In this document: positions 6,600-39,270 of the stretch, piece by piece
Layout: each line of letters starts with the position of its first letter
Position numbering within the stretch: position 1 is the stretch's first letter
NCBI GenBank assembly: GCA_948144175.1
Contig: CANXME010002192.1
Coordinates: 1,922,001 to 1,986,000 of the forward strand
Source: Closterium sp. NIES-65
Taxonomy: Eukaryota; Streptophyta; Zygnematophyceae; Desmidiales; Closteriaceae
Length of the DNA stretch: 64,000 bases
Direction of reading: 5' to 3'
Program-made: the position numbers and the translations under genes
The notes under the pieces: generated by a model
Seen by the model: the letters and a program-made list of their open reading frames with translations, nothing else
Database searches by the model: none
Told to the model about the DNA's origin: nothing

Positions 6600-7025
6600 C
6601 AAGGTTTGCGGAGCAGTGTGTAGGTTGATTTTGAGTCAATGATGCAAGGGCTGACTGTTGAGCCGTGTTTTGAGTGGACTTAAAACTGTCCTACTCCTCA
6701 CTTTTGAGTCGACTCAAAACGAGGCGACTTTTGAGTCGACTCAAAACGAGGTAACTTTTGAATCGACTTAAAACGAGGTAACTTTTGAGTCGACTCAAAA
6801 CGAGGTGACTTTTGAGCCGATGATGCAAGGGCTGACTGTTGAGCCGTGTTTTGAGTGGACTCAAAACAGTCCTACTCCTCACCGAGGTGTGTGGAGCAGT
6901 GTTTAGTTTGTTTAGGAGTCGATGCAACGGCTGACTTTTGAGGTGCCTCAAAAGTCCTCCCTACTAACGGAGGTGTTCGGGGCAATGTGTAGGTTGGTTC
7001 TTTAGTTGACGCAATAGCGTCATAC
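6600..7025. repeat. Palindrome-bearing repeat block
   Basis: Three diverged copies of one unit (a GGAGCAGTGTGTAGGTTG type core, near 6610, 6890 and 6980) are separated by palindromes TTTTGAG-N4-CTCAAAA. Exact copies: 6702-6719, 6729-6746, 6783-6800 (centre TCGA) and 6849-6866 (centre TGGA). Weaker ones are at 6667-6685 and 6756-6773. A 24-bp form with the arms GACTTTTGAGG/CCTCAAAAGTC is at 6933-6956. Confidence 0.8.
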
Positions 7026-7109
7026 TCCCCTCTCCCAGTCCTCCTCACAGGCAGGCAGGAGGGGCGTTGTTTCAGATAATGTGTTGAGCAGTCAAAGCTT
7101 GTACTAAAT

Positions 7110-7370
7110 TGTGCTCATCCTTTCCTTTTTCCCTCCAACACTCCTTCCCTCCTCTCTTCCTCCACCTCTCCCTCCCCCCTTTCTCCCTCCACCTCTCTTT
7201 CCCCCCTCTCTCCCTCCACCTCTCCCTCTTTCCTCTCTCCCTCCACCTCTCCCTCTTTCCTCTCTCCCTCCACCTCTTCCTCTTCCCTCTCTCCCTCCAC
7301 CTCTTTTTCTTTCCTCTCTCCCTCCACCTCTCCCCTTCCCCTTCCCCCGTGCACGCTTCCCTTCCACCCT
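7110..7370. repeat. CTCCCTCCACCT-type pyrimidine array
   Basis: About ten imperfect 21-27 base units of CTCCCTCCACCTCTCCC type stand directly before exon 7 of copy A. The long open frames here on both strands are products of the repeat. Confidence 0.7.
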
Positions 7371-7793
7371 CTTCCCCAGGGCATATGCAGCGACGCAGGG
7401 TGTGCAGCGGCGGGGGTGGTGGATCACAGTGTGGTGGTGATGGGGTACAGCTTAACGTCATCGGAAGGCGCCTACTGGATCCTCCGCAACTCCTGGGGGG
7501 GCACGTGGGGCATGCAGGTAGGGTATGCGTGGCTTTGTTGTTTCTTTGCAAGTCGTTTTTTATCATTTAGTTAAAATGACCTGCAAGAGAAATAATATTA
7601 ATAATAAAAGATAAATAAAAAACGCTATCCGCGTGCACTATCACTCTCTGTATGCAGGGTTACATGGAAATGGCCTTTGAGGGAGGCGTTGGCATTTGTG
7701 GCATTCACTCAGTGCCGGCCCTCTACCCCATCATTAAGAGTTTGTTGACCCCCTCGTCTGTCTGCTTCTATGCATGCATGCGCACATATGGGG

Positions 7794-8075
7794 CACTGAT
7801 GGGGCACATGTGGGGCACTGATGGCGCACATGTGGGGCACTGATGGCGCACATGTGGGGCTCTGATGGCGCACATGTGGGGGCACTGATGGCGCACATGT
7901 GGGGCACTGATGGCGCACATGTGGGGCACTGATGGCGCACATGTGGGGCACTGATGGCGCACATGTGGGGCACTGATGGCGCACATGTGGGGCACTGATG
8001 GCGCACATGTGGGGCAGTGATGGCGCACATGTGGGGCACTGATGGCGCACATGTGGGACAGTGATGGCGCACAAG
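7794..8075. repeat. 23-bp satellite in copy A intron 8
   Basis: About twelve near-identical head-to-tail 23-base units (GGCACTGATGGCGCACATGT plus GGG). The array begins 55 bases after exon 8. It ends beside a palindrome at 8098-8114, which is itself followed by a diverged copy of the unit. Confidence 0.85.
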
Positions 8076-9388
8076 TAAGGAAGTTCTACACGTGATGTTT
8101 GAGGCGCCTCGAAAATCACCTCAATGCAGTGTATACATGTGGGGTAGTGATGGATCGCAAGTGAGAAGTTCTACTCGTGCTCGTGCTCGTGCCTGCATTC
8201 TCTCTTTTGACGCGCCTCACAAGACCTCCCCTCCCTCTCCTTCTCCCCCCCACCACACCAGCGCCCAAGCCATGCTAGTCACCGCAGAACCCATGTGGGG
8301 GGGGGCACGTGCGAGGAGGTGATGGATAGATTCTACACGTGCTCGTGCCTGGACCCGCTCTTCATTCCCGTTGCCGACAAGGGCGGCGCCCAGACGTGTG
8401 TGTTTGGTGAGTGGCGCCCACGCGTGTGTTTAATGAGTGGCGCCCACGCGTATGTGCTTTGGGAATATGAAGCTCACACTACTTTTTCACCATATGCCAT
8501 GCATCATTATCTTCCCCCCCTTCCCATCATACCCCATGACCTTACACTGACCTCTCCTGCACCCCCCACCGCCCCTCCCTCCTCTTCCCGCCCCGCCTAA
8601 TAAGAGCTCCCCTTGCGCCTCTTCCCCTTCCCCTGCACCTTTTCCCCTCCCCTAGCCCCTCTTCTCCTTCCCTCCCCCCACTCCCCCCTTGTACCTCTTC
8701 CCCTCCCCTTGCCCCTCGTCCCACTCGCTCTCTGCCAGCTGGCATGTGCAGCCAAGGAACGACAGTCTCCAACTCCCCTTGCGCCTCTGTTTTTCCCCCT
8801 GCCCCCCCACCCCCCCCCCCCCCCCCCCCCCCCCCCTCCACTTGCCCTTGCCAGTCAACGTGTGCAGCCAGCAGGACGAAAACCCGTGTGCAGTCGGCAC
8901 GTGCATCAACGACAAGGCGGGCGGCTTCTTTTGTCTCTGTCCACCGGGATTCGACCAGGGGTACCGCCCGAACGGTGCTCACACATGCGTCCCAAGTGAG
9001 TGTTCAAGCGGGCGGCTAATCTTGTCTTTTCTTACCCATGTTCTCACATGTGTCCTTATATGTGTTCAAGTGGATGGCTCCTCTTGTCCTTTTGCGATTC
9101 ATGCTTCTTTTAGAACCACAGTTAATCACATCTATCCCATCCCATATATGCACCGCAAATCACATCCATCCCATACCATGTATGCACAGCTTACTCTGAA
9201 ACATCACTGCGTCTTCATCCCTTTGAGTTCTTCTCACGTCTCAATCGCGTCTCCTCTTTCTCGCCCCTCCTCCTCTTTCTCACCTCTCCTGCTCCCCCTT
9301 TTTTTCTTCCCGGTTGTTATTATTATTTATCTTCTTGTTTTCTTTGTTCTTGTAAAATTTTCTTCCTTGCCTCCCTGAATCTCTGCAG

Positions 9389-9460
9389 CCACCACTCCAA
9401 GCTACAGCGTCGTCTTCCCAACAGACATCAGTTGTCCGCTCGCCGACCCCGTTCCCCATC
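9389..9460 (+). repeat. Partial copy of the first LysM exon
   Basis: A CAG acceptor plus YSVVFPTDISCPL-coding sequence repeats the beginning of the complete exon at 9506-9615. It has no visible donor, so it is probably a silent duplicate. Confidence 0.65.
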
Positions 9461-9935
9461 TCTAGCCTCTCCCATCTCTCCCCCCCTCCACCCCCCTCCC
9501 TGCAGCCTACAACCCCTCATACACCGTCATCTTCCCAATAGACATCAGCTGTCCGCTCGTCTACCAGCTCTACGGCCTCACAGAGGAGGCGTTTCTCGCT
9601 CAGAACCCCAACCTGGTGAGCTAGATGCTGAGAGTACCTTCACAGCTGGGAGGCTGATCTGGGAGGCTGATGTGGGAGGCTGGGAGAACGTTGCAACTGT
9701 GATCTCTCCTTTCCTCCTGCGTTCTCGCACTGTCCCACCTACTCGCCAGCTCCGCCCTGCGTCTCCCCCACTGAGCATGGAAGAGGACTTGCACGTGTGT
9801 TGTGATTCGACTCACACCCCCACCCGCTGAGTATAAATGAGGACTTGATGAGTGAGTGACAGATACCCTCACCCACCGCACCCCACTTCACCACACCTCT
9901 CCCAACCCCATGCCTTCACCTTTTGAATCACAAGG

Positions 9936-10033
9936 AATGGATCACTGCAAGTCCATCCCGGCCAACACGGCAGTGAGCGTGGCGCCACCCCTCAAGGGGG
10001 CAGTGTACTGTGCGCTCTACTACTCGTGGACTG
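9936..10033 (+). repeat. Partial copy of the LysM2 exon, 5' half
   Basis: Encodes MDHCKSIPANTAVSVAPP and ends at YYSWT. It duplicates the beginning of the exon at 10090-10313, which follows 57 bases later. This duplicate keeps the base that the full-length exon lacks. Confidence 0.65.
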
Positions 10034-10313
10034 GTCACTGGCGTAACTCACACCAAACCCCAACCCACCCCACCCCACTCAACCCACAGGGCATGGACCA
10101 GTACGAAACCATCCTTGCCAACACGGGAGTGAGCATGGCACCACCCTCAAGGGGGCAGTGTATTATGCGCTCTACTACTCGTGGACGGAAAATGACACGT
10201 GTGAGAGCGTGGCGGACAGTTTCTGGCTCACAGTGGACGACTTTCTGACGCTCAACCCCGGAATCAATTGCACGGATTGCACCGCCTGGAACGCTTTGAG
10301 CGTGAACCAGCAG

Positions 10314-10594
10314 GTGAGATGTGGTGCATTGCAGTGTACTGCGGTGCTCGGTGGTTTGGCGGACTTGTTCTGGCTGACAGTTGACGACTTTCTGACACTC
10401 AACCCCGGAATCAACTGCACGGATTACACCGCTTGGAACACTCTGACTGTGAACCAGCAGGTGAGATGTGGTGCAGTGCGGTGCAGAGCGGTGCTTGATG
10501 GTGTGGCTGACAGTTTCTGGATTGCAGTAAGGGGCTTTCTGACGCTAAACTTGGGATCAACTGCCTGGAACGCTCCGACTGTGAATCAGCAGGT
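10314..10594 (+). repeat. Two partial copies of the LysM2 exon, 3' half
   Basis: Units of about 140 bases repeat the WLTVDDFLTLNPGINC..VNQQ part of the exon together with its GTGAGATG donor and the following GGTGCAGTGCGGTGC run. Donors fall at the ends of the copies near 10460 and 10591. A similar extra copy follows the exon in copy B at 25057-25145. Confidence 0.7.
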
Positions 10595-11242
10595 GAGATG
10601 CGGTGCAGTGCGGTGCTCTATGGTGTGGTGCATGCGTTTGGGCAGGCATTAGATCTGCCAGTGGGGTTCAACCTAGGGTTAACCGTGCACCTCACTCACA
10701 CCGGGGTTCACACCTGCCTAGGCAGCCCACGTGCATGGCATACAAATGTTGTTTTGAGACGCCTCAAAACAGCACTTTTAACTCATGGCAATGGGCGGCA
10801 TTCCTGCTCAGGCTGTCCACATGCACGGCATGGTACACAGTTCGTGCCAGCGACACACGCAAGGGCAACATGCCTCGTCAAACCCCTTCTTATTCCGCTC
10901 CCTCGTCTTCTCTCTTCCCACCTCTCTCCTCACAGCTGTGTGTGGCGAAGGGCAGCGGGGGAGGGGACGTGCCCACGCTGCCCATGTGCACGGCATGGTA
11001 CACAGTACACTCGCGGGACACATGCGAGAGCATCATGAAGGATTTCGCTCTCAACCAAACCACCTTCTTCTCACTCAACCCGGGCGTGGGCTGCGACAGC
11101 CTCTTCGCGTCTGTTGGGGGCAGCAGCCTCGGCTGGAGTGGGGGTGGTGTGCAGGTGAGGGAATGGCAGCAGGTGAGGGGTGGGGAGGAGAAAATGGAGA
11201 TAATAATGTGATGTTTTTACGCCTTCTTCTTGATACGAGCTA

Positions 11243-11264
11243 GTTTTTTAGAATTCTCAAAAAC
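11243..11264. repeat. Palindrome between two 60-base copies
   Basis: Imperfect palindrome centred on GAATTC. The stretch beginning CAGCAGGTGAGGGGTGGGG (about 11165-11225) is repeated at once after it (11265-11330). Confidence 0.8.
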
Positions 11265-11332
11265 CAGCAGGTGAGGGGTGGGGAGGAGAAAGTGGAGATA
11301 GTAATGTGATGTTTTGATGCCTTTTTCCAGCT

Positions 11333-11560
11333 CAACTCAGCACTGGGCTGCGACAGCCTTTTTGCGTCCCTTGGGGGCAGCAGCCTTGGCCGGGCTGGGG
11401 GTGGAGTGCAGGTGAGGGGTTGGATGCGGTGATGATGGGATGGGAAGGGGTGTGGTTTTCCCTGCCTTCTTCTCCCTCAACCCGGGTGTCGGCTGCGACA
11501 GCCTCTTCGCGTCTGTTGGGAGCAGCAGCCTCGACTGGAGTGGAGGTGGTGTGCAGGTGA
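11333..11560 (+). repeat. Two partial copies of the LysM3 exon, 3' half
   Basis: Sequence for LGCDSLFASLGGSS and for FFSLNPGVGCDSLFASVG, each ending in GTGCAG followed by a GTGAG donor, repeats the end of the exon at 10936-11154. Confidence 0.7.
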
Positions 11561-11753
11561 GCGGTGGGGAGTAGGTGAGGGGTGGGATGCAGGTGAGGGG
11601 ATGGCGTCCTGGTGAGGGGTGGGATGCAGATGAGGGGATGGCGTGCTGGTGAGGGGTGGGATGCGGTAGTGAAGGAAGATCTGGCGCGTGTGGGATGCAT
11701 ACCTGGTGGATACCTCAAGCCCATCCACCCAATCTCTCCCCCCACTAAACCAG

Positions 11754-11781
11754 GTGTGTTTTGAGTCGACTCAAAACACAC
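11754..11781. repeat. Perfect 28-bp palindrome
   Basis: Arms GTGTGTTTTGAG and CTCAAAACACAC around TCGA. The sequences on its two sides (a GGCGCGTG..GATGCATAC..TGGT block at about 11680-11730 and again at 11783-11830) are imperfect copies of each other. They also resemble the start of the last exon (GGATGCATACCTGGT). Confidence 0.85.
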
Positions 11782-12698
11782 TTGGCGCGTGCAGATGCAT
11801 ACTTGGTGAAAACCTCGGGCCCATCCACTAAAACGCACCCATCCATCCTTAAACTTGCTGGCTACACCAAAGGAAGCAAAAAGGAAACACCCTCCACGCC
11901 CACCCACCCATCCCCATGGGCCGTTGCAGGTGTGTGTGCATACATTCCCAGTGGAGAGATCGTGAGGTTAAGCACCGAGGTATCCACTAAGTAGGCATCC
12001 ACACACACCTCGATCCCCAGGCTCGTCGACCCAGTCTCTCCCCCCACCCTCCACGCCCGCCCACCCATCCCCTTGGGCCATCGCAGATGTGTAGGCATGC
12101 AACCTGGTGGTTACCCCCAGTCCGCTCAACCCATTCTCCTCTCCCTCAATGAAGCGCACTCACCCATCTCACCCTCCATGCCCACCCACCCATCCCTATG
12201 CGCCATCGCAGGTGTGTATAGATGCTTACCTGGTGTAAACCCCATGCTCGTGCTCCGCGCCCACCCACCCATCCCCATATGCCATCGCAGGTGTGTGTGG
12301 ATGCATACCTGGTAGAAACCTCGGGCTCACCCACCCCTCGCTCCCTCCGTGAGCTCTTCTCCACTTCCCCACTCGTTCCCTCCACCCCATCCCTCTCCTT
12401 CCAATCCTCCTCTTCTTCCTCTTCTTTCTCCTCCTCTTCCTCCTCTCCCTCGTCTCTCTCAACACGAGGAAGACTGCTCATCCCCTCTCCCTCCGCTCAA
12501 CCAATGAGAGGACGCCATCTGGCGGTGTCAAAGAAGCGGTGCCTGGCGTTTTACTCAGTGACGCGGGGGGACTTTTGTGCGCGCATCATATCGCTCAAGT
12601 TCCAGAACAGTGCGAAGACGCTGGCCGACTTGAACAATGGATATGTGTGCACCAATGATAGGCTATATGTGGGGCTCTCGCTTTGCACTCGAAGATAG

Positions 12699-13271
12699 AC
12701 GTACGAGCTTTCAAGGCGCCTAAAAAAGTTGTACTTTGGAAGGTTGTGTACCTTAACTTTGTAGGCTCTCCATTGCTGGATTGTACTTTACCTCAGTAAG
12801 CTTTCCCTTGGTCGAATGTAAGGTATGCATTGCGAAATCTAAACTGAATACCATAGTTCGTTTCCTTACGAAACACTCACAAGACTGTAACACCTATTTG
12901 TTTCGGCAATATCTGGTTTCGTGACCAAGTTTCGTCCAGCCCACAGATATCTACGTTTCCAGTTCTCACGGAAACACCTGCAGCAACCTGCGCAGGCACC
13001 AGAGCCTGAACTGTCGGAACAGCCAATAGACACTCGACATTCAGCGCCACGCATATAAAGCTGTCCTCTTGTCTCTTTCACATGTTTTTTCATAAATTTT
13101 GAACAATTTTGCTAACTCCAAATGTAATCTTGTTACATGAATATTTTTTTCCATGACAAAGGTTTGTCTGCCGCTACTTGCGCTCCATCCTGGCGTCTTG
13201 CCGAGCAGAACCGAGTCGCAGGCAAAGCCTCAGTCGGTTGCCTTGCCGCCTTTTCAAAAAGCTTCTGAATG
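12699..13271. other. Spacer after copy A, no gene seen
   Basis: 3' flank of copy A. It contains one weak palindrome of the family (12708-12728, core AGGCGCCT). No exon or RNA gene could be supported. Confidence 0.4.
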
Positions 13272-13500
13272 AGGTCGTATCTCCAGCAAGTGTCAAGAAG
13301 GGCTTGGTGTCAAGCGCTGTTAACGGTTGACACCAAGTGGAGCCGCGTGTGAGCGCGGCTCCAGCCTGGTGTCAATGTTGGGCACATTGGACGATTTCCC
13401 GCGATCACATTGGTTGGTTTAGCTGACACCAGGAGGGATAGTCCTCCATGTGTTTTCCGAGTTGGTGTTATGACACTAGCCCTTGCTGGAGATACAACCT
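13272..13500. mobile_element. MITE-like inverted-repeat element
   Basis: 19-base ends at 13272-13290 and 13482-13500 are reverse complements with one mismatch (AGGTCGTATCTCCAGCAAG). Inside is a second dyad: TTGACACCA (13327-13335) with TGGTGTCAA (13367-13375), enclosing a perfect 10-base hairpin TGGAGCCGCG/CGCGGCTCCA (13338-13347 and 13354-13363). No target duplication was found, so element status is an inference. Confidence 0.5.
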
Positions 13501-13558
13501 AGGGCTTTGAGGAGGACGACGAGGGGGATGTGCATGACAGGAGGACTGAGGGAGAGGG

Positions 13559-13620
13559 AGGGGGGGGGGGGGGGGGGTGGGGGGGGGTAGGGGGGGGGGG
13601 GGGGGTGGGGGGGGGGGGGA
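13559..13620. repeat. Interrupted poly-G run
   Basis: About 60 bases of almost pure G with a few T and A. Such a run could form G-quadruplexes. Its length is likely unreliable in assembly. Confidence 0.7.
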
Positions 13621-14109
13621 TGTGCACAAGTTGACAAAAAAGCTGCTCCATTTCAATTTTCGCGAATGACCAGTTCGGAAGAACGTACACGAGAGAGCCA
13701 CGAGTAAGCAAGCAGCTTCATCTCTTCCCTTCCCCATTCGCCACCCGCCCTTCTCCTGCACTTACTTCGAAAGTTTTACCAGGAGCTGCCTAACGACTGT
13801 GTTCATGACGAGCTCAGGTTCATGATAACGAACACGTCATACTACTAGTAAAGCAGGGGATTGCATTTCAAACTCTGAGCGCGTCGTGATAGTCCGTCCA
13901 GGCGATCTAATACTGTATTTCTAGGCGTCTCGAAATACCCAGCTCTAATTTTCTTCGGCGCCGCATATATTGCCTCGTCTGGTTGGTCGAAGACTATCCG
14001 ACTTTCTGAGTCGGTCTAAAAGTCACCTCCGCCGAGGGGTCCGCGGCGTCGACTGTCACCGTGACGTCCCATAAGGGGCTTTTTGACCGTTGCTGCTCGG
14101 ATCATCGAG

Positions 14110-14280
14110 AGCACCGCGCCTCGAAATTAGAGCAGCGTGCCTTGAGGTTATAGCAGCGTGCCTCGAGATTGGAGCAGCGTGCCTCGAGATTGGAGCAGCG
14201 TGCCTCGAGATTGGAGCAGCTTGCCTCGAGATAAGAGCAGCGCGCCTCGAGATTAGAGCAGCGTGCATCGAGACTAGACA
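14110..14280. promoter_or_regulatory. 21-bp repeat array upstream of copy B
   Basis: Seven to eight imperfect 21-base units of the type GCAGCGTGCCTCGAGATTGGA, several carrying CTCGAG, end about 40 bases before the proposed ATG at 14322. Position suggests promoter or 5' leader; a regulatory role is inferred only. Its open frames lack other support. Confidence 0.5.
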
Positions 14281-14321
14281 GGCCAAACCAAAGCCCCTTT
14301 TCTGTGCGCACAGCCGCCGCC

Positions 14322-26486
<12,165 letters not shown>

Positions 26487-26782
26487 CAGACAGGGTAGTG
26501 GTTGTTTTTTGAGAATTCTCAAAAAACACACGCAGAGGTAGCAGGCAGGGTAGTGGTTGGGGACAAAGCGCGAGATGGTGGAGCTCAACAATGGATATGT
26601 GTGTACCGACGATAGGCTCTACGTGGGGCTGAGCCTGTGCACGCGCCGACAGAAGTGCCTTTCATGTGAAGCTGGCGGAGTTGAACAACGGATACGTGTG
26701 CAACAACGATAGGCTGTACGTGGGGTTGTCCCTTTGAACACGGAGGTAGGAGCTAGTGAGTTCTTTCGAGGTGCCTCGAAAG
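26487..26782 (+). repeat. 3'-end copies of the last exon, with palindromes
   Basis: Two copies of the LNNGYVC..DRLYVGLSLC-coding end lie at 26580-26650 and 26668-26740. A perfect 26-bp palindrome centred on GAGAATTCTC (26503-26528) separates two GAGGTAGCAG.CAGGGTAGTG copies. Another palindrome, CTTTCGAGGTGCCTCGAAAG, is at 26763-26782. Confidence 0.8.
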
Positions 26783-27384
26783 TTTGTGTGCGTGCTGGTT
26801 GGTTGAGATCGTGCCAGAATTGGCATGCCCTTCCTTGTGTGAAGCCTGGGGGTTGTGTTGTGTTGGCATGTCTGCTTGGAGTGCAAACAGAAGATACGTT
26901 TTTGCATCTCTCACTGGTTATTCCAAGCGCATTTACGGTAGTGGGGAGGGGATATTTCCACCAAGTTGCTGCAGCCCAGGCCGCTGGCTGGCATATTTCT
27001 GTACACGCATTAGCTGGCCACACGCACAGTATTGGAACGCTTCAATTGAGTACGTGTTATACCTTATGTACTCTACATTTGTAATATGCATATTTTATTG
27101 CCATAACGAGCAGTTCTGCTGTGGCCTATTGTGGCGCTTGCGTTTATGGCCATTTAGAGAGTTTCTGGTTGCCTCAGCGCAGCGGAGTGGATTGGTAGGG
27201 CCATGTTGGCTGCACAGGTGTACCTTGGTACTTACCTGTAGTACTTGAGTTGAGGCATGCATGGTATGGTGATGGTAGAAGAAAGCAATCATACTGAAAT
27301 GCATTGACACCTACAAGAATGACCTCATCTCACCGTAGAAAAAACTGTCATGTCGTGACATGACGTGACGACTCTAAAAAGACA
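26783..27384. other. Intergenic, no gene seen
   Basis: No exon, repeat or RNA gene could be supported between copy B and the repeat block that follows. Confidence 0.35.
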
Positions 27385-27905
27385 TCTCACCTTGCCGTGG
27401 CACACCATGTCCAAGCCATGTGTCCTCAGGGGACGCCTCCCATGAAGGAGTTGCAGCCCACAAGTCGTCTGGCTCCAAAAGAAACACACACACACCACAC
27501 CCATGTCACGCCATGTCCAAGCCATGTGTCCTCAGGGGATGCCTCCCCTGAAGGAGTTGCAGCACACCCACACCCAAACCTGGGTCCAAGAGAAACACCA
27601 CAGCACACCCATACCCAAACCTGGGTAAAAGAGAAAGACCACAGCACACCCATATCCATACCTGGCTCATGAGAAACACCACAGCACACCGATACCCATA
27701 CCTGGCTCATGAGAAACACCACAGCACACCCACACCCATACCTGGCTCATGAGAAACACCACAGCACACCCATACCCATACCTGATTTATGAGAAACACC
27801 ACAGCACACCCACACCCATACCTGGCTCATGAGAAACACCACAGCACACCCACACCCATACCTGGTTTATGAGAAACACCACAGCACACCCACACCCATA
27901 CACAG
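27385..27905. repeat. 100-base duplication and 40-bp satellite
   Basis: A block CCATGTCCAAGCCATGTGTC.. is present twice (about 27405-27480 and 27508-27560). About eight 40-base units of the type GAGAAACACCACAGCACACC plus CACACCCATACCTGGCTCAT follow, to 27905. There are no spacers. Confidence 0.85.
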
Positions 27906-27939
27906 TACCACATGCTTGTGACAAGTTGCAAGCTCATAT

Positions 27940-28110
27940 CATCTAGAACCAAGTGAAGAGTGTACTCGGGTCATCTCTCATGAAGGAAACTTCTGAGTTG
28001 ACTCAAGGTGACTTTCAACTTTTGAGTCGACTCAAGGTGACTATTGGCTTTTGTGTCGACTCAAAGGGTCCAAGTGGAGTGTGTACCAGGGTCATCTCTT
28101 ATGAAGGAGA
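27940..28110. repeat. Triple TCGACTCAA half-palindromes between copies
   Basis: CCAAGTGAAGAGTGTACTCG..GTCATCTCTCATGAAGGA (27949-27989) recurs at 28070-28108. Between the copies are three variants of the family palindrome, at about 27990, 28020 and 28050. Confidence 0.7.
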
Positions 28111-28700
28111 TGAAGGCACAGGTGGCCGGACCGGGCCAAAAGAGCAACACGACCACACCCACCATGCTCATCATGCCCGTGTAGGACCTGCTTTTGAGAA
28201 GTCGCATATGCAACATTCTAGAAGCAGGCTCGGTGAGAACGAGGAACATACCAGGAGGAGCTGAAGGCACAGGCGGCCGTTCCAGGTCAGAAAAGCAACA
28301 CCACCACCACATCACATCCACCATTGGGACCGGCCTTTGAGAACCATGAAATGGTATGTGTCGAACCGAAGCCAAGTGTGAAAAAAGGGGAGCATAACCC
28401 ATCAAGAGTTCAAAGCGGGAAAGAGAGCGGAATTACCTCTTGGGTTAACCCAAAGCTGAGAAACTATAAATACTAAATATGAAATGAATGAATACATAAA
28501 TAAATTAAGTACGCAAAACTGAAGCCCACACCTGGCCTGGCTCAAGAAGCCTTTCCAGAAATTTTTTAAAATGTGCCACATTAGCATAGTTGCCCATTCT
28601 TTAGGCGCCTTAATAACAGGCACTACCACTACCATAACAGATTGCTTGCTGGAACAAAACCAGCTGGTGATAACACAATAAGCCACGATGAAGCTTATGA

Positions 28701-32823
<4,123 letters not shown>

Positions 32824-35472: not shown

Positions 35473-39270
<3,798 letters not shown>

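Follow-up and report, generated by a model that had tools for sequence, protein, structure and literature searches.

Families of short palindromes that can form hairpins, thought to be selfish, populate introns and intergenic DNA in the organelles and nucleus of Volvox carteri (PMC2670323). Small tandem duplications in mouse cells have been traced to fill-in of staggered breaks by Pol alpha-primase/CST (PMC8355091), and repair-mediated duplication in vertebrates copies mostly proximal DNA (PMC2671141). Here, we analyzed a 64-kb stretch of nuclear DNA from Closterium sp. NIES-65 (contig CANXME010002192.1, positions 1,922,001 to 1,986,000; hereinafter the window), in which the palindrome TTTTGAG-N4-CTCAAAA recurs. 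We propose that ultrashort hairpin insertion elements, which together make up a superfamily, probably populate the Closterium nuclear genome, with this palindrome as their innermost part, and that they are captured by or copied into staggered breaks. The superfamily comprises several families, which have the core in common and differ in their centres and outer arms.

Like the Volvox repeats, the Closterium palindromes form families of short hairpin-forming sequences present in the nucleus, a likeness of description; the sampled copies sit mostly between long direct repeats, whereas the main text of the Volvox report contains neither "duplicat" nor "flank" (PMC2670323). The Closterium duplications are similar in size to those attributed to Pol alpha-primase/CST, which derive from complementary overhangs, but have a constant hairpin family between the copies; neither "palindrom" nor "hairpin" is matched in the main text of that study (PMC8355091). 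Repair-mediated duplication is a further likeness, with insertions that carry microhomology and filler at breaks, although the accessible text describes no constant insert such as that found in Closterium (PMC2671141). The direct duplication and the microhomology at filler ends that mark break repair with filler are both present here (the latter at 13/23 junctions of copies with the centre TCGA), yet the filler is neither random nor locally templated: the palindromic fillers belong to one superfamily, with arms common to different loci.

Miniature inverted-repeat transposable elements (MITEs) and other nonautonomous DNA transposons are short, have terminal inverted repeats, reach high copy numbers, and are flanked by fixed short target duplications. 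The Closterium inserts are likewise short and numerous, with inverted-repeat ends and a target duplication, but they are almost pure palindrome, and their duplications are variable, at 16 to 121 bp in the tested range and 16 to 60 bp among the identical ones alone. Bacterial REP palindromes, which are mobilized by RAYT enzymes, are also very short dispersed hairpins without genes; they differ in being bacterial and, to our knowledge, in lacking such target duplications. The terms "palindrom" and "hairpin" are unmatched in the accessible text of a genome-size study of Closterium that covers NIES-65 (PMC10407611), and full-text searches of an open literature library showed no description of such hairpin insertions.

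At two mismatches or fewer, the palindrome matches 22 times in the window, all at 6668 to 28066, compared to a mean of 0.18 and a maximum of 2 in 100 dinucleotide shuffles. This agrees with a previous sequence-only reading of the window, which had reported about twenty copies in 6.6 to 28.1 kb at positions accurate to 1 to 6 bases (the site that it placed at 24161 has its core at 24167-24184, diverged by three mismatches). The same reading had noticed the palindrome nowhere else, which holds within the window, where the sequence outside 6.6 to 28.1 kb contains none at two mismatches or fewer, but not genome-wide: the 874-Mb assembly contains 30,327 exact copies, versus 4 for the reversed pattern. 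By centre, the assembly has 13,080 exact copies with TCGA, 5,047 with ACGT, and 2,601 with AATT, and the reversed controls have 0 each. Among 62 exact copies in the window and 186 kb of fetched sequence, the centre was TCGA in 27, ACGT in 13, GCGC in 12, AATT in 3, and near-palindromic in 7. The centre is thus self-complementary in 55/62 copies, as had been noted, with ACGT as a further common form. In total, 60 of the 69 perfect even palindromes with arms of at least 8 bases in ∼290 kb belong to this family.

Short tandem duplications abound in this region, and ∼25% of nonrepeat positions reach a direct-repeat score of at least 12. Against such a background inspection by eye is insufficient, and only abutting repeats were therefore scored, with neither copy allowed to be more than 12 bases away from the palindrome, a threshold of 15, and arrays collapsed to yield 16 loci. 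Abutting direct repeats were present at 13/16 loci. When all positions were shifted in common within 4.6 to 28.9 kb, a mean of 5.3 loci reached the threshold, and 13 was reached in none of 4,780 shifts. Other thresholds gave 13 loci at 12 (0.06% of shifts as good), 12 at 18 (0.02%), 11 at 23 (0.08%), and 10 at 26 (0.23%). Thus, most palindromes lie between direct copies, as had been claimed, although one site named in that claim, 8205, scores only 5; 24636 (score 4) and 26764 (score 5) also lack a convincing abutting repeat. A variant palindrome at 24012, outside the 16 loci, scores 13. The sites in the window are as follows.

6668-6866, cluster of palindromes at 6668, 6702, 6729, 6756, 6783, and 6849, with a 27-bp array mid-cluster (6702-6800; abutting-repeat score 67), flanked by ∼80-bp direct copies
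6869-7014, palindrome 6936-6953 (centre GTGC) between copies 6869-6927 and 6954-7014
8049-8179, palindrome 8097-8114 (GCGC) between copies 8049-8094 and 8135-8179, the right copy beginning 20 bases from the core
8205-8222, diverged palindrome (GCGC) without an abutting repeat; paralogue of 22098
10694-10831, palindrome 10752-10769 (ACGC), its arms beyond the core complementary at 8/11 positions, between diverged copies 10694-10741 and 10781-10831
11167-11327, palindrome 11245-11262 (AATT) between 63-bp copies 11167-11229 and 11265-11327
11682-11840, palindrome 11759-11776 (TCGA), arms CCAGGTGTG/CACACTTGG, between copies 11682-11740 and 11783-11840
15616-15736, two palindromes, 15642-15659 and 15691-15708 (GCGC), with three copies of a 23- to 24-bp segment around them
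18545-18647, palindrome 18587-18604 (TCGA) between 41-bp copies 18545-18585 and 18607-18647, 95% identical
20268-20327, palindrome 20289-20306 (TCGA) with 21-bp copies on either side
22098-22115, diverged palindrome (GCGC) adjoining a ∼102-bp partial exon duplication, with a 25-base gap on the right
24090-24259, 32-bp palindromic insert 24160-24191 between ∼70-bp copies 24090-24159 and 24192-24259
24636-24653, palindrome with a decayed right arm, without an abutting repeat
26474-26559, palindrome 26507-26524 (AATT) between 31-bp copies 26474-26504 and 26529-26559
26764-26781, symmetric variant TTTCGAG-GTGC-CTCGAAA without an abutting repeat; paralogue of 12709
27949-28108, three palindromes at 27991, 28020, and 28049 (TCGA or close to it) between 39-bp copies 27949-27987 and 28070-28108

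The association was also found outside the window. In the fetched loci L005 to L024, which were chosen because they hold palindrome matches, 26/34 isolated sites scored at least 15, compared to 23.4% of 23,010 background positions (binomial p ∼1e-10). A second sample comprised 40 places picked by palindrome position alone (35 AATT and 5 TCGA, the first listed, with obvious arrays skipped); 23/30 isolated sites and 30/40 places overall scored at least 15. Lack of an excess of flank repeats over random positions had been set beforehand as an outcome that would refute the idea, and the excess held. Other palindromes do not share the property: among perfect even palindromes in L005 to L028 and the window, abutting repeats occur at 0/9 outside the family and at 25/31 isolated members of it, and only 1 (27541, score 21) of 13 control palindromes in the window, mostly imperfect, reaches 15.

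The repeats decay together with the palindrome. In L005 to L028 and the window, 36 of the 55 isolated sites with two mismatches or fewer have abutting repeats: 23/28 with a perfect palindrome, 6/10 with one mismatch, and 7/17 with two. The median identity of the duplications falls in the same order, from 0.94 to 0.88 to 0.77 (rho -0.36, p 0.03), as expected if palindrome and duplication arose in one event. Gaps of 16 bases were allowed for this set and for the 40 places, in place of the 12 of the window and L005 to L024 tests, so the 23.4% background is slightly low for them.

The direction of the event can be read from sites that lack the palindrome. Five loci in the window have palindrome-free paralogous sites in which the duplicated segment occurs once. 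The clearest is 20289: its paralogue at 19893-20013, a neighbouring and incomplete copy of that exon region, aligns to the two flanks joined together across all 121 bases at 87% identity and contains the 21-bp segment once. Weaker cases are 11245 (11374-11520, 72%), 26507 (26590-26700, 73%), 24167 (9335-9489, 67%), and the 28-kb locus (28181-28307, 67%). Deletion between the copies could also yield single-copy sites, so that this argument for insertion rests on parsimony. Arrays provide a second one, because duplication of a palindrome-bearing segment would give palindromes and targets in equal numbers, whereas insertion leaves one more target copy than palindromes. The latter was found in three of four arrays (L011:7990, 5 palindromes and 6 copies; L014:1439, 5 and 6; window 15642, 2 and 3); the fourth, L023:8134, has 5 palindromes and 5 full target copies plus an 8-bp remnant, and a fifth, L009:5821, is left out of this count. 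Support for the insertion pattern is good. The proposal of a tiny hairpin insertion flanked by very long target duplications is supported by the single-copy paralogues and the arrays, and also by duplications that are 100% identical and by replication at sites picked blind to their flanks.

The TTTTGAG core is constant, and the centre and outer arms vary on both sides together. In the window, pairs 10 to 14 are complementary in 53/105 cases versus 30.2 expected, a value reached in 0 of 20,000 shuffles. The fetched loci show 60/66 versus 46.8 for the centre pairs and 67/99 versus 43.4 for pairs 10 to 12, and the second sample shows 80/90 versus 34.5 for pairs 10 to 12 and 90/150 versus 57.5 for pairs 13 to 17. 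The joint changes reflect family structure at least in part. Arms AGGTGAC/GTCACCT are common to TCGA copies, and six AATT copies have, in full or in part, an arm that ends in TATATTGGTGCGAC or in a close variant of it. The TATATTGGTGCGAC arm recurs at the unrelated loci L051 and L058, of which L058 has a long left and a short right arm and L051 the reverse; this reciprocal loss indicates that copies were trimmed unequally from a longer hairpin. Most of each insert is inverted repeat, and single-stranded DNA of four window inserts is predicted to fold into hairpins of -6.0 to -13.8 kcal/mol. At the junctions of TCGA copies, the first outward base equals the consensus arm in 13/23 cases (p 0.001), i.e., microhomology. 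The conserved half-sites at fixed spacing suggest either a dimeric protein or a fixed hairpin tip recognized by the machinery.

The sequence-only reading had also considered a repair process that copies the target and caps it with a fold-back. Recurrence of the same arms at unrelated loci indicates that at least those arms come from element families and not from local copies of the target. The constant part does not require this idea, and a repair-type insertion (staggered break, fill-in, microhomology) is still the likeliest route. Local fold-back copying as the main source of the outer arms was dropped, identical long arms being present at unrelated loci. On the minus strand of L019 near 949, head-to-tail half-sites (TTTTGAG-TCGA-GGTGACTTTTGAG) stand beside a normal head-to-head palindrome, as if units may join in either orientation via the self-complementary four bases.

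At the 59 sites where a repeat abuts the palindrome, inserts measure 18 to 49 bp. The inserts at L006:9001 and L015:2167 have A runs of at least 9 bases beside the palindrome, the sole tail-like runs of at least 7 among the 59. Eight duplications are 100% identical (16, 21, 23, 28, and 60 bp in the 55-site set and 17, 19, and 38 bp in the second sample) and provide the safest length measurements, although three of the five in the 55-site set (L011:6805, L017:1955, and L018:9164) also allow a longer alignment.

In the route that we favour, a staggered break, its two strands cut at points separated by tens of nucleotides, would open; a short nucleic-acid hairpin, perhaps 36 to 50 nt at full length, would be captured by the break or copied into it, with a few bases of microhomology at the join; and fill-in of both overhangs would produce the target duplication. 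The direct copies could then allow some loci to grow into minisatellites whose unit is the palindrome plus the target. Candidate sources of the hairpin are a small RNA, a small DNA, and the copying of existing copies. Transposases cut at a fixed stagger, so the variable duplication lengths argue against them. Such lengths are compatible with the fill-in of nicks or breaks whose overhangs vary, and the junction microhomology fits an insert annealing to the break. Capture or copying of a discrete hairpin molecule is ranked first because the inserts found end within or near the hairpin arms, in a method that itself caps insert length.

Several points weigh against this reading. A longer or autonomous partner, a donor molecule, and an enzyme were not found, though these were hardly searched for. 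Palindrome-free tandem duplications are common here, so duplication may be a process of general occurrence, with the palindrome serving as filler. Between 18 and 35% of isolated copies lack an abutting duplication (5/28 perfect copies, 19/55 with two mismatches or fewer, and 7/30 in the second sample). Pairs 13 to 17 show no excess complementarity in the fetched loci (55/165 versus 50.2 expected), and a purine bias outside the duplication (288/460 versus 230 ± 13) was weaker in the second sample (0.566, standard error 0.038) and is not relied on. Copies were sought up to 130 bases long and within 12 to 16 bases of the palindrome, so that the lengths of inserts (capped at ∼50 bp) and duplications are partly set by the method. 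With 300-base flanks, 12/35 sites have a longer alternative alignment and no unique duplication length; with gaps of up to 80 permitted, repeats farther out appear at several of the 26 sites that had failed. Relaxed limits also gave an abutting repeat of ∼148 bp at L016:3287.

Target-primed reverse transcription, in which a very small hairpin RNA would be moved by retrotransposon machinery in the manner of a short interspersed element and variable staggered nicks would give variable duplications, is a doubtful alternative. Variable target duplication length is typical of this route and not of transposases, and the 16- to 121-bp range found here, the unequal trimming of the arms, and the terminal microhomology would all follow from it. 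The 3′ poly(A) or other repeated tail of such elements is not seen, however: an A or T run of at least 7 occurs in only 2/59 inserts, other repeated tails having been sought by eye. The self-complementary centre would be unneeded in an RNA loop, and no partner element was found, in hardly any search.

Comparably doubtful is the explanation that general break repair makes the tandem duplications and that the palindrome is a captured filler without mobility of its own. It draws on the high background of tandem duplications, and a first look at duplication spacers of 15 to 40 bp found 16 with a family palindrome and 16 without (from a direct-repeat scan of ungapped segments whose low-complexity filter removed most arrays; only its spacer counts were used). 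A passive pool of fillers should be diverse, whereas 60/69 perfect even palindromes are of one family.

Template switching during replication, by which stalled forks would copy an existing palindrome located elsewhere and restart upstream, so that palindromes spread as hot templates and restart duplicates the target, is unlikely. Junction microhomology, duplicated targets, and symmetric arms are all consistent with it, as are the sites with repeats beyond the tested distance, which longer inserts would give. Unique donor flank would often be expected beside the palindrome, yet the inserts are 18 to 49 bp, a weak objection in a test that caps them at ∼50 bp.

It is very improbable that the palindromes are footprints of excised larger transposons with these ends. 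Inverted ends four bases apart do resemble abutted transposon ends, but isolated TTTTGAG half-sites are few in ∼249 kb (44 versus 21 expected, some within one array; paired distant ends were not searched for), and we know of no transposase that fits such long variable target duplications. That a repeat family merely happens to overlap a duplication-rich region, or that the assembly is at fault, is barely credible despite the abundance of tandem repeats and the one scoring control palindrome, given old copies with diverged duplications and palindromes common to the paralogues 8205/22098; chance or background duplication was ruled out by the shift, random-position, and other-palindrome controls.

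The broader proposal, for which we judge the arguments evenly balanced, is that capture or copying of hairpins at staggered breaks defines mobile DNA of a new class. Its members would be hairpins of ∼20 to 50 nt that carry no genes and fall into several families around a fixed TTTTGAG inner stem; they would insert through breaks staggered by tens of nucleotides, would have been active recently, as judged by identical duplications, and would seed tandem duplications and minisatellites genome-wide. In looks the elements resemble selfish palindromic repeats; the mode of insertion may warrant a separate class. If so, they would be near the lower size limit of a mobile element, and since the insert is mostly hairpin, the hairpin itself must be recognized or copied. 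They would also provide a natural read-out, many thousandfold, of staggered-break fill-in and, for introns, a direct source of minisatellites and short duplications. Closterium belongs to the algal group that is closest to land plants.

Rfam gave no match above the gathering score, and the TCGA form of the palindrome had no exact match in viral contigs. Among predicted proteins, the palindrome was present in 0/120 of the Copia matches listed, and a tandem-unit query gave 34 candidates and 0 matches. A word match in one NIES-65 protein (P0168) and one NIES-64 protein (P0129) is suggestive only. The P0129 gene model contains LLRILKN, one reading of the AATT-type palindrome, hinting that the sister strain NIES-64 may carry the family too.

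Two tandem copies of one intron-rich gene span 4.5 to 26.7 kb. A Closterium homologue, P0121 of NIES-64, carries Pfam PF00112 and PF01476, which we take to be a papain-type protease and LysM, respectively; the second gene copy is 97 to 100% identical to it over several exons and less so over others. Palindromes within the two gene copies are, by eye, either intronic or located just 3′ of the stop codon. The sites 8205/22098 and 12709/26764 occupy paralogous positions in the two copies and are therefore not independent. The palindromes at 12709-12726 and 26764-26781, diverged and without flank duplication, lie just beyond the last exon in both copies and are probably one old insertion common to the paralogues. 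Many partial-exon tandem duplications without palindromes are present in 4.5 to 28.5 kb (e.g., exon pieces at 19.7 to 20.4 and 25.9 to 26.07 kb), which indicates frequent local duplication in this gene family. A nearly perfect TC dinucleotide array of 440 bases occupies 14894-15333.

Farther along the window, two long minus-strand open reading frames (ORFs) with glutamine runs (28701-31916 and 35473-38427; DNA ∼68 to 70% alike) form a second tandem gene pair, and two related sets of Copia-type ORFs lie on opposite strands at 47 to 61 kb. At two mismatches or fewer, neither the glutamine-rich pair nor the Copia-type sets contain a palindrome of the family. The Copia-type ORF at 47.0 to 48.9 kb matches proteins of several Closterium strains, the best at 93% identity over 97% of the query.

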